A stretch of DNA of 64,000 nt from an uncultured Prevotellaceae bacterium. GTDB taxonomy: Bacteria > Bacteroidota > Bacteroidia > Bacteroidales > Bacteroidaceae. This document shows, one piece after another, positions 5,645-42,239 of this stretch (the first letter of the stretch is position 1; each line of letters begins with the position of its first letter). The position numbers and the translations under genes were made by a program. The stretch is from positions 62,001 through 126,000 of the forward strand of contig ONCH01000003.1 of assembly GCA_900316265.1 (NCBI GenBank), written 5' to 3'. The notes under the pieces were generated by a model. It had not been told where the DNA came from and did not search any database. It worked only from the letters and a program-made list of their open reading frames with translations.

Positions 5645-6019
5645 TTGAAAGAGGAGATACTAAATGATCATGTTCATACGATAGAGGAGATGCGGGCATG
5701 GCTGAAGCCTTTTGGTTATAGCGATGCGATAAAAGATGCAACTATCAATGCTATCCTGTGTGAGTTCGTGATGAGCAAAGTTTCTTGTGATGAAAAGCGC
5801 TATATGGATATGATAGTTGAACTTCTTCGTCCGCAGCTGGAAGTTACAAAGGAGTATAATAACATAATACATCATTCATCCTACTTCAGCCCTCAGACAT
5901 CTTATTATCCGTTCGATTCGTTCCATCCGTGTTCGCTTAAATACTTTCCGTGTTATCCGTTTAATCCGTGTTCAAAAAATATTAATTCTCAAATTCTCCA
6001 ATTCTTGACTCTAAAATAA
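5645..6019 (+). pseudogene. Gene remnant running into repeats
   Basis: An open frame whose first 75 codons look protein-like (EEMRAWLKPFGYSDAIKDAT, then a helical stretch to LRPQLEVTKEYNN) but which has no ATG at its beginning (the first possible start is TTG at 5645). Its last 50 codons are translated repeat DNA rich in Phe, Ser, Pro and Tyr. I read it as the fragment of a broken gene whose 3' end was replaced by the 5908-6144 repeat array. Its function is unknown. Confidence 0.35.
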
Positions 6020-6144
6020 GATTCGTTATATTCGTTCGATTCGTGTTCGTAATATTAAGAAATAATCAAATATAGCGTAAAGATTATTCGTGTCTATTCG
6101 TTCGATTCGTGTTCGTATAAATTATATTTCGTGTTCGCTTAATT
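5908..6144. repeat. Array of TTCGTTCGATTCGTGTTC-type repeats
   Basis: At least five imperfect copies of a unit related to ATCCGTTTAATCCGTGTTC occur here. Two 21-base stretches, 6030-6050 and 6096-6116, are identical. The same unit closes the repeats around the GxxExxY gene (ATCCGTGTTC at 41645-41654), so this array probably belongs to that repeat family. Spacing is irregular, so it is not a CRISPR array. Confidence 0.6.
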
Positions 6145-7809: not shown

Positions 7810-8175
7810 ATGGAAGTATTTGGTTATCGTAAGTTGATAGGTTATCAGAAGGCAAAAGAGGTGGTAAAACACACATACAAACTTCTGAAAAAGTTTCCAG
7901 CAGAAGAACGCTATGCTATGAGTGATCAACTCAGAAGGGCATCTGTCTCGATAACATCTAATATTGCTGAGGGAATAAATCGCTACTCAGTGAAAGATAA
8001 GTCTCATTTTATTGAGATGTCTTATGGTTCACTGATGGAGGTTTCTTCTCAGTTCGAAATAGCAGAAGAACTAGGATACATCACAGCTGAAGAAAGACTC
8101 AGTATGGATCAGTTGATTGAAGAAGTGGCCCGTCTCTTATCTGGTCTTCAAAAGACCTATAAGGGCGAAAGTTGA
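7810..8175 (+). CDS. Four-helix-bundle protein (S23/IVP-like), copy A
   Basis: A 121-residue protein of the family found inside 23S rRNA intervening sequences (TIGR02436-type). Hallmarks are the opening YRKLIGYQKAKEVVKHTYKL, the segment LRRASVSITSNIAEGINRYS and the following HFIEMSYGSLMEVSSQFEIA. The predicted structure is four amphipathic helices forming a basic pentamer-like bundle, by analogy with bIVP and Avd. Biochemical function in this context is unknown; nucleic-acid binding is likely. It lies between gmd and fcl and its stop codon is inside the right flanking repeat. Copies B (9693) and C (21808) share the same core but differ clearly in sequence, so they are not recent duplicates. 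Confidence 0.85.
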   Translation: MEVFGYRKLIGYQKAKEVVKHTYKLLKKFPAEERYAMSDQLRRASVSITSNIAEGINRYSVKDKSHFIEMSYGSLMEVSSQFEIAEELGYITAEERLSMDQLIEEVARLLSGLQKTYKGES

Positions 8176-9692: not shown

Positions 9693-10052
9693 ATGTTTTC
9701 TTTCGAAAACCTAAAGGTTTATCAGTTGGCGCGGGAACTAGTAAAGGATGTGTATCTATTACAGAATACTTTTCCGAAAGAGGAGCGTTATGCTTTAGGC
9801 GATCAGGTACGTCGTGCTGCAACGTCGATAACAGCAAATATTGCTGAAGGTAGTGGGCGAGAGTCCATCAAGGAGAAGATACATTTTATTGAAATAGCTT
9901 TTGGGTCAATGGCCGAAGTTTTTTGTGAATTACAGACAGCCTGTGATCTCAATTATATAAAATTAGAAAAGTTGGATGCTTTACGTCCGCAATTTACAGA
10001 GGTAGCAAAGATGCTCTCAGGTCTAAGGAATACGTCGCAGAAGCAGCTTTAA
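9693..10052 (+). CDS. Four-helix-bundle protein (S23/IVP-like), copy B
   Basis: A 119-residue relative of copy A, with the family core FENLKVYQLARELVKDVYLL, VRRAATSITANIAEGSGRES and HFIEIAFGSMAEVFCELQTA. It probably forms a basic four-helix bundle that binds nucleic acid; its role outside rRNA intervening sequences is not known. The ATG at 9693 follows immediately on the left repeat arm and the TAA at 10050-10052 is formed by the first CTTTAACC word of the right repeat, so the reading frame exactly fills the cassette. It sits between fcl and the small gene preceding glmS. Confidence 0.85.
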   Translation: MFSFENLKVYQLARELVKDVYLLQNTFPKEERYALGDQVRRAATSITANIAEGSGRESIKEKIHFIEIAFGSMAEVFCELQTACDLNYIKLEKLDALRPQFTEVAKMLSGLRNTSQKQL

Positions 10053-21789: not shown

Positions 21790-22185
21790 TTAACCTTAAC
21801 CTTAACTATGGCTGGCGCTCGAAATTTCAGGGATTATTCGGTATGGAAGGAGGCTGTTGAGTTGGCAACTCTTGTATATAATATTACAGAAAAGATGCCG
21901 TGGTTCGAAAAGAAGGGACTTTGTGATCAACTACAGCGAGCAGTGGTTTCTATTGGCTCAAATATTGCTGAAGGCGCTGCTAGAAATTCTGATTCGGACT
22001 TCGCTCATTTCCTAGATTTCGCATTGGGCTCAGCATTCGAAGTGGAAACTCAATTGCTTATTTCAAAAAATGTAGGTTATTTGGATGATGAACGTTATCA
22101 AGAGCTTATCTTTAAACTGTCTTCTATTGAACGTCAGTTAAATGGTTTAATTTCAAAAATCCGAGACCGTCAAGGTTAAGGTTAA
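21790..22185. mobile_element. Candidate cassette C: inverted repeats around four-helix-bundle gene
   Basis: TTAACCTTAACCTT (21790-21803) and AAGGTTAAGGTTAA (22172-22185) are a perfect 14-base inverted repeat bracketing the gene. GATAAC tandem words precede the left arm and AAGGTTGAA follows the right one. The gene starts 4 bases after the left arm and its TAA (22177-22179) is part of the right arm. Confidence 0.5.
21808..22179 (+). CDS. Four-helix-bundle protein (S23/IVP-like), copy C
   Basis: A 123-residue family member starting at ATG 21808 (an upstream frame into the preceding gene is not credible). The core is RDYSVWKEAVELATLVYNIT, LQRAVVSIGSNIAEGAARNS and HFLDFALGSAFEVETQLLIS. It is the most divergent of the three copies in this window. 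Its start lies directly after the left inverted repeat and its stop within the right one. It separates the initiating transferase from the first ATP-grasp gene. The biochemical role is unknown. Confidence 0.85.
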   Translation: MAGARNFRDYSVWKEAVELATLVYNITEKMPWFEKKGLCDQLQRAVVSIGSNIAEGAARNSDSDFAHFLDFALGSAFEVETQLLISKNVGYLDDERYQELIFKLSSIERQLNGLISKIRDRQG

Positions 22186-26419: not shown

Positions 26420-26450
26420 TGTCACACAGATTTCACGGATTACACAGATG
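26420..26450. repeat. CACAGATTTCACGGATTACA-type repeat
   Basis: The whole 28-base spacer between the aldo/keto reductase and the MmgE/PrpD gene is a repeat word (CACAGATTTCACGGATTACA and then CACAGATG), whose last ATG is the start codon of the next gene. It belongs to the same family as the ends of the repeats at 41453 and 42047. Confidence 0.65.
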
Positions 26451-41452: not shown

Positions 41453-41654
41453 GAACACGGATCTCCCAGATTTACACAGATATGAAATAGGTATTTTATA
41501 TTGATGATAAGTTGAGATTATTTTGAGGTACTTCTGAAAGTGAACTTTCAAAATACCTCCAAACAATATCAACCTTTGTTCATAACAAAGCAATCTTTCC
41601 CAAGATTGTCATCAATATAAAAGATCATCCGTTCAATCCGAGTCATCCGTGTTC
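41453..41654. repeat. Structured repeat unit 1 (cloverleaf-like)
   Basis: Ends in the inverted words GAACACGGAT (41453-41462) and ATCCGTGTTC (41645-41654). Inside, TTTTATATTGATGA (41494-41507) pairs perfectly with TCATCAATATAAAA (41609-41622), enclosing three hairpins: GAGGTA/TACCTC with inner TGAAAG/CTTTCA (41525-41559), CTTTGTT-CAT-AACAAAG (41574-41590) and CAATCTT-TCCC-AAGATTG (41591-41608). Confidence 0.8.
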
Positions 41655-41667
41655 CAATTAAAGAAAT

Positions 41668-42060
41668 ATGTTGCTATACTGTGACCTTACTTATGCAATC
41701 AACGGAGCTGCGTTCCATGTTTACAACAAGCTTGGTCACGGCTTCCTTGAAGCAGTGTATCAGGAAGCACTGGAAATAGAATTCCAGAGACGCAATATTC
41801 CGTATGAGCGAGAGAAAGAACTAAAGATAACTTACGATGGTGTTGAGTTAAAACAAACTTACAAAGCAGATTTTGTCTGCTATGGAAAGATAATCATAGA
41901 ACTGAAGGCGGTAAGCGCATTGGATGACGCTCATCGTTCTCAGGTCTATAATTACCTTCATGCCACAGGCTTTAAGCTTGGTTTACTCTACAACTCAACT
42001 TCGGATGCTCTGATGAATTGGAAAAAGAACGTATTGTTGTTTAATCGAACACAGATCTAA
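41668..42060 (+). CDS. GxxExxY protein (PD-(D/E)XK-like)
   Basis: A 130-residue member of the GxxExxY family: the name motif is present as GHGFLEAVYQEALEIE (about residues 23-38). The later segment YKADFVCYGKIIIELKAV carries D and ExK in the arrangement of a PD-(D/E)XK nuclease core (D at about 67, ExK at about 75-77). A nuclease or nucleic-acid-binding role is expected from the fold but has not been shown in general. The gene starts 13 bases after repeat unit 1 and its last codons (RTQI and stop) are made by the left end of repeat unit 2. Confidence 0.88.
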   Translation: MLLYCDLTYAINGAAFHVYNKLGHGFLEAVYQEALEIEFQRRNIPYEREKELKITYDGVELKQTYKADFVCYGKIIIELKAVSALDDAHRSQVYNYLHATGFKLGLLYNSTSDALMNWKKNVLLFNRTQI

Positions 42061-42239
42061 CGGATATACACAGATGTTTTTATATTGCTGATAAGTTTTA
42101 TTTGGTTGAAGACTTTATGAAAGCTAGCTTTCAATCAATCTTCCAACAAAATTAAACCTTTGTTCATAACAAAGCCATCTTAACCAAGATGGTCATCAAT
42201 ACAAAAAGATAATCCGTTCAATCCGAGTCATCCGTGGTC
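42047..42239. repeat. Structured repeat unit 2 (cloverleaf-like)
   Basis: Begins GAACACAGAT (42047-42056) and ends ATCCGTGGTC (42230-42239). The outer stem is 42077-42091 with 42193-42207 (13 of 15 pairs). The three hairpins are GTTGAAGA/TCTTCCAAC with the palindrome TGAAAGCTAGCTTTCA inside (42105-42147), an unchanged CTTTGTT-CAT-AACAAAG (42158-42174), and CCATCTT-AACC-AAGATGG (42175-42192). The last shows an A-T to C-G double change relative to unit 1. Confidence 0.8.

Follow-up and report, generated by a model that had tools for sequence, protein, structure and literature searches.

The presence of a small GxxExxY gene between two direct copies of a structured repeat in the genome of an uncultured Prevotellaceae bacterium raises the question as to whether gene and repeat form a single element, whether such an element is mobile, and which of its parts are kept in related loci. 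In order to address this we analysed the gene and its flanks within a stretch of 64,000 nucleotides (the window), which belongs to a 2.85 Mb draft genome of 93 contigs, and compared them with loci of the same and of other gene families.

The GxxExxY gene and its two flanking units

The features of the window that bear on this question are as follows.

41453..41654, + strand: unit 1, with the 5' arm words GAACACGGAT, CAGAT and CACAGAT, a cloverleaf core and the 3' arm ATCCGTTCA ATCCGAGTC ATCCGTGTTC
41494..41622, + strand: cloverleaf core of unit 1 (DNA fold z -10.4; covariation over 14 cores)
41668..42060, + strand: GxxExxY gene, 130 aa, PD-(D/E)XK nuclease-like (TIGR04256, PF13366)
42047..42239, + strand: unit 2, a direct copy of unit 1 (repeat search and alignment)
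42078..42206, + strand: cloverleaf core of unit 2 (DNA fold z -5.4)
26425..26449, + strand: solo 5' word array CACAGAT TT CACGGAT TA CACAGAT, which takes up the roughly 30 nt separating two reading frames
5907..6112, + strand: three clustered 3'-type word arrays, starting at 5907, 6021 and 6086 (pattern search)

As the original prediction had it, the gene is enclosed by two units of about 200 bases (202 and 193 nt) in the same orientation, and a global alignment of the two counts 164 identities and 21 mismatches, with 25 gap positions; blastn puts their identity at 77% over 222 nt. Each unit is built as a 5' arm, a core and a 3' arm; unit 1 starts with GAACACGGAT and ends with ATCCGTGTTC, unit 2 starts with GAACACAGAT and ends with ATCCGTGGTC. 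As had been noticed earlier, the GxxExxY reading frame runs into unit 2 and ends with the opening word of that unit, read in frame (...LFNRTQI*). Pfam and NCBIfam profiles identify the genes on either side as galactokinase-like and nucleotidyl-transferase genes. A second GxxExxY copy lies just outside the window, 43 kb away (G000:C91:60538-60870), and shows the same unit-gene-unit plan and the same kind of core with other outer words, the two proteins being 47% identical.

The window also holds word arrays away from the gene. No GxxExxY gene was found by tblastn within 1.5 kb of the solo array at 26425-26449, and no matching 5'-type array was found in the cluster at 5907-6112, whose arrays look decayed or nested. 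A 207 aa ORF at 5000-5623 matches no Pfam family at E 0.001. At 7810-8175, 9693-10052 and 21808-22179 lie three four-helix-bundle (23S IVP) genes with word flanks of their own, of the AGTTGAGAGT, GGTTAAAGG and TTAACC types.

The GxxExxY protein is a member of TIGR04256 (135.5 bits, cut-off 35) and matches PF13366 PDDEXK_3 (130.4 bits, cut-off 22), with no Pfam or NCBIfam match beyond these two at E 0.001. The PD-(D/E)XK core proposed from the sequence is borne out by its residues E28, D68, E78-x-K80 and Q92xxxY96, the first four of which (E28, D68, E78 and K80) are invariant in 144 of 144 distinct GxxExxY proteins. A predicted model (pLDDT 88) matches restriction-nuclease-like structures, with the Cas4-type SSO0001 as the closest fold by Foldseek, while a sequence search of solved structures gave a single, not meaningful match at E 0.83. 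By predicted fold and conserved core residues the protein is a putative Cas4-like PD-(D/E)XK nuclease, differing from Cas4/RecB-like nucleases in its size (about 125 aa in the family) and in its weak Cas4 profile matches. Two further identities were considered and rejected: a defence system, as PADLOC gave Cas4 profile matches only weakly (E 0.0038 and above), and phage cargo, as tblastn gave 0 matches in a set of 50,697 phage records and matches in only 8 plasmid records. Rpn proteins are PD-(D/E)XK members as well. They fall in a different Pfam family (PF04754) from GxxExxY, and available portions of PMC5350276 describe the Rpn (YhgA-like) family as studied for DNA mobilisation. GxxExxY matches occur in 74 of 148 sampled Bacteroidota genomes, 73 of them scoring over the cut-off, with up to 12 gene matches per genome.

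That the units fold as cloverleaves was confirmed for both cores, which consist of a closing stem and three hairpins. As single-stranded DNA the core at 41494-41622 folds at -31.7 kcal/mol (z -10.4) and that at 42078-42206 at -23.2 kcal/mol (z -5.4; 200 dinucleotide shuffles each). Folding energies of the opposite DNA strand are slightly lower (-33.4 and -26.0 kcal/mol for cores 1 and 2), and the whole units folded as RNA give z -7.6 (unit 1) and -4.6 (unit 2). Across 14 aligned cores 17 of 36 pairs carry double changes, with 62 compensatory cells observed against 18.3 ± 4.0 after shuffling and 4-8 with slid partners.

The cloverleaf was rejected as a universal unit, since the core model R1 matched few relatives (at least 5 of 119) in a search that scored up to 27 candidates per listed genome, so that misses are possible. 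R1 found at least 11 units; 8 of these 11 are no more than about 100 nt from a GxxExxY gene and 3 lie away from one, one of the three at a contig end. In one genome (L294, G050:C14:139260-139405) the cloverleaf unit is opposite in strand to the neighbouring GxxExxY gene.

Word arms as the part that generalises

The three-word arms, rather than the cloverleaf, are the generalising part of the element, so that the claim of a unit general to the family stood for the arms and fell for the core. At GxxExxY loci each arm consists of about three nine-nt words, set before the start codon and repeated in inverted form after the stop, and inspection by eye places the gene of many relatives directly between the 5' and the 3' arm with no core at all. 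The words differ between elements (CGGAT, CGAAT, CAGAT, CAGAG and CAAAG types) and are the same within one element. Our comparison used 147 loci, which amount to 146 distinct ones because L042 and L077, drawn from two collections, are the same locus; counting again on distinct loci altered no result materially. Those taken from genome searches are the best-scoring per search and not a random sample.

The best stem between the two flanks of a locus scored at least 16 in 82 of 147 loci, against 10 of 147 when the flanks of two loci were mixed. At least three inverted 7-mers common to both sides of the gene were found at 67 of 78 GxxExxY loci and for 57 of 233 control ORFs from the same loci (the measure covered 78 of the 80 GxxExxY contig loci, with no duplicates among them); such sharing is absent in 11 of the 78, which counts against reading the loci as mobile elements. 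Stems with z of at least 3 were obtained in Bacteroidota samples for 22 of 30 GxxExxY loci, 19 of 27 four-helix-bundle loci (27 of 29 entering the test), 8 of 16 short DUF559 loci (16 short-ORF loci kept of 30, 14 dropped) and 0 of 30 ParE loci. Over all distinct GxxExxY loci the count is 93 of 145, with z below 3 in the other 52, including 4 of 6 plasmid loci.

The spacing of the words also differs by family. GxxExxY flanks have a single period of 9 nt (292 flanks, 146 distinct loci), four-helix-bundle (23S IVP) flanks have periods of 7 and 14 (56 flanks), and the ParE control flanks have no period peak above 0.03 (60 flanks). The exact pattern CACAGAG was too narrow. The theme CACRRAK occurs twice within 400 nt of the gene at 70 of 146 distinct GxxExxY loci, at 0 of 29 four-helix, 0 of 16 DUF559 and 1 of 30 ParE loci. 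The doubled word is also present more than 600 nt from the gene in 27 of 146 GxxExxY loci, as would be expected of solo copies and equally of a repeat independent of the gene. In a Mantel test on 132 loci, likeness of the arm words rises with protein identity beyond what control flanks show (r 0.307, 0 of 500 permutations); the test is uncorrected for ancestry, and part of the correlation may come from loci shared by descent.

Outside Bacteroidota we viewed seven GxxExxY loci by eye for word arms or repeats. These were seen in Acidobacteria (L136), in Treponema (L129) and weakly in a second Treponema locus (L167); Gemmatirosa (L168) has words downstream only, Sphingomonas (L171) upstream only, Fusobacterium (L170) has a direct repeat, and no word arms were seen by eye at the Planctomycete (Pirellulaceae) locus L121.

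Selection on a sense RNA is expected to favour G.U pairs, whereas selection on DNA is not. For the 93 distinct loci whose stem score is at least 14, arm mismatches comprise 205 G.U and 233 A.C, and in the 14 cores one-sided changes are rare (6 G.U and 9 A.C cells). As there is no G.U excess among the mismatches the pairing looks DNA-level, and pairing in a sense RNA finds no support in the mismatch types of either arms or cores. GxxExxY genes between co-directional neighbours are oriented 94 sense to 5 antisense, a bias that is weaker for four-helix (18:5) and ParE (12:3) genes. We read it as a need for co-transcription, and an RNA-level or expression rule also fits.

These data bear on an explanation at the RNA level, in which the arms would pair in the polycistronic transcript and a cut by RNase III would free the small ORF as in 23S rRNA IVSs, insertion being tolerated at the RNA level and spread taking another route. 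In the Coxiella 23S rRNA IVS, going by excerpts of PMC4990558, heptamer repeats stand just before the S23p start and the terminal stem is cut by RNase III. The arm-ORF-arm plan is alike, in that the loop of a terminal stem bearing tandem words carries a small ORF; a profile check places the four-helix genes of the window in the 23S IVP family, and both the sense bias and the good RNA folds of the units agree with such a reading. We nevertheless regard it as unlikely, given that neither arms nor cores prefer G.U, that the opposite DNA strand folds slightly better, that the G050 unit lies on the strand opposite its gene and that the predicted protein fold is closest to a Cas4-type nuclease. Set against 23S rRNA IVSs with S23p/IVP, the GxxExxY element has an unrelated gene and 9-nt words, lies between protein genes and lacks a G.U bias; the window element is not inside a 23S rRNA gene, the number of Rfam matches in the window at gathering thresholds being 0.

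Gene-free arrays and shared junctions

In order to look for copies of the words without the gene we searched 148 Bacteroidota genomes for the three-word array, with the reversed pattern as a control. The exact array gave 23 matches; the 12 genomes (of 148) with such a match all belong to the 74 gene-positive ones (p 1.5e-4), and the reversed exact pattern gave 0 matches in the 148 genomes. With one mismatch allowed there were 79 matches in 35 genomes, namely 31 of the 73 genomes with a GxxExxY gene over the cut-off and 4 of the 75 others (p 5.5e-8, uncorrected for ancestry), and the reversed pattern gave 3 matches (in G140, G152 and G196). By tblastn, 2 of the 23 exact arrays have a gene in the 3-kb locus. 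Some gene-free arrays are full palindromes of about 100 nt and many are one arm only.

Units occurring as often without the gene had been named as the finding that would speak against a link. In cis this is what we observed, since few of the 79 relaxed arrays (at least 6, going by the genes listed) lie near a GxxExxY gene and many therefore look like solo, MITE-like copies; yet the arrays are concentrated in gene-positive genomes, which is the pattern of non-autonomous copies or remnants and not of independence. The scattered arrays, mostly away from the listed genes, could be decayed remnants.

A different explanation is that the words exist independently as repeats of the host, be they regulatory, terminator-like or prone to slippage, or are what is left of dead elements, with the small genes as passengers. 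It would account for the fact that most arrays are away from GxxExxY genes among those listed. In one genome (G165) nine arrays were examined: L348-L350 share 151 nt at 97-99%, L353 and L355 share 235 nt at 94%, and L352 and L354 are similar beyond the arms by eye, so that five to seven of the nine copies are part of longer repeats, which may account for their spread. Excerpts of PMC4679880 report heptamer arrays (TAACTGA repeats) a short way upstream of start codons in Beggiatoaceae, in Cyanobacteria and in some Bacteroidetes, and read those of Beggiatoaceae as possible translational regulators. What such independence leaves unaccounted for is that arrays track gene presence over the 148 genomes (uncorrected for relatedness) and that word period and theme differ by gene family and follow protein relatedness, and we hold it to be improbable. 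The palindromes at G165 L348-L350 and L352 lie inside another inverted-repeat element with GAGACCTCTGAAAAAT-type ends.

The junction between galK and the NTP-transferase gene, at which the window element lies, could be compared among relatives. Two relatives of the same genus (L182 and L186) have nothing between the two genes, which overlap by ATGA. In G001 the junction holds a GxxExxY element whose words are different. In three relatives it holds genes of other families, DUF559 in two and 23S IVP in one, all with words of their own (L193 in G037, L194 in G007 and L196 in G067), and in two relatives there are word palindromes without a gene. The junction is a common hot spot for unrelated gene families. 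Taken with the stem counts above, this agrees with the proposal in the original prediction of a class of repeat-bound single-gene elements, all three families being found at the one junction. Among 57 distinct loci with a syntenic partner 16 have a partner without the gene, several of these 16 being at the one galK/NTP junction; at two other junctions what the partner (L072, L087) has is a palindrome without the gene. Comparison by eye of empty and filled galK/NTP sites gave no clear target-site duplication. Inverted repeats around a gene and gene-free derivatives, the marks of a transposon that is parent to MITEs, were both found, and the sequence comparisons gave no instance of transposition or excision.

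Repeated occupation of identical junctions in related genomes is also what would result from homing-type spread, in which the nuclease would cut the element-free allele at the junction and repair would copy the element, the words being incidental or recognition sites. The homing nuclease I-Bth0305I has a domain among the Foldseek matches of the GxxExxY model, albeit a weak one (E 0.13). Homing by itself would leave unexplained both the gene-free arrays at many unrelated loci and the finding that a single junction hosts unrelated gene families whose words differ, and in our judgement is not a probable explanation.

A candidate minimal mobile element and related systems

The reading we favour, with a confidence that is about even, is that of a REPIN/RAYT-like minimal mobile element with a PD-(D/E)XK nuclease as its enzyme and with non-autonomous palindromes. 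Such an element would consist of one GxxExxY nuclease gene inside terminal inverted arms of about three nine-nt words, and the gene-free copies, in which two arms enclose a short loop or a cloverleaf, would be its MITE- or REPIN-like non-autonomous partners. The nuclease may recognise the words of its own element, either as duplex or as an extruded or lagging-strand hairpin, and by cutting at them would copy or move its own gene and the solo palindromes; movement of the units by the nuclease is what we infer from sequence comparison. Gaps between co-directional genes would be the targets of insertion, and insertion in sense would keep the element co-transcribed and harmless. As two cloverleaf units flank the window gene, this copy could move as unit-gene-unit or each unit could move alone.

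In REPIN/RAYT systems, as set out in the available sections of PMC3116915, an enzyme gene lies near palindromic repeats and gene-free palindromes are scattered between genes, the flavours of the repeat varying with the enzyme and the hairpins forming in ssDNA or mRNA. The GxxExxY system is similar in having an enzyme gene together with scattered gene-free palindromes tied to gene-positive genomes. It differs in that a PD-(D/E)XK nuclease replaces the Y1 transposase (TnpA_REP), that the arms are made up of about three nine-nt words and that one genome can have as many as 12 gene matches, and with no Y1 transposase the GxxExxY element is not a member of REPIN/RAYT.

A wider generalisation, which we put forward more tentatively, is that of a multi-phylum class of minimal mobile elements in which a short tandem word serves as address in place of a fixed sequence at the ends. 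Each family would have its own word grammar (9-nt for GxxExxY, 7-nt for 23S IVP and a GC-rich hairpin for DUF559), words would change in concert, gene-free copies would be moved in trans and gene slots would be interchangeable at the same operon junctions. Its scattered members would include 23S rRNA IVSs as well as the heptamer arrays known from Cyanobacteria and Bacteroidetes. Tandem heptamer arrays are STRRs. The TAACTGA arrays differ from the GxxExxY element in that the portions of PMC4679880 at hand do not connect them with any family of small genes enclosed by inverted arms. If the mobile element proposed here is real, a widespread family that takes its name from a motif alone would gain both a substrate and a role, and word repeats between bacterial genes would be accounted for and linked to 23S rRNA IVSs, the origin of which is called unclear in the accessible part of PMC4990558. 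No link between GxxExxY and repeats was found in the open-access literature searched, in the available text of which the family is named in passing only.

The Coxiella heptamers before S23p, as given in excerpts of PMC4990558, agree with the 7-nt grammar seen in the four-helix cassettes.
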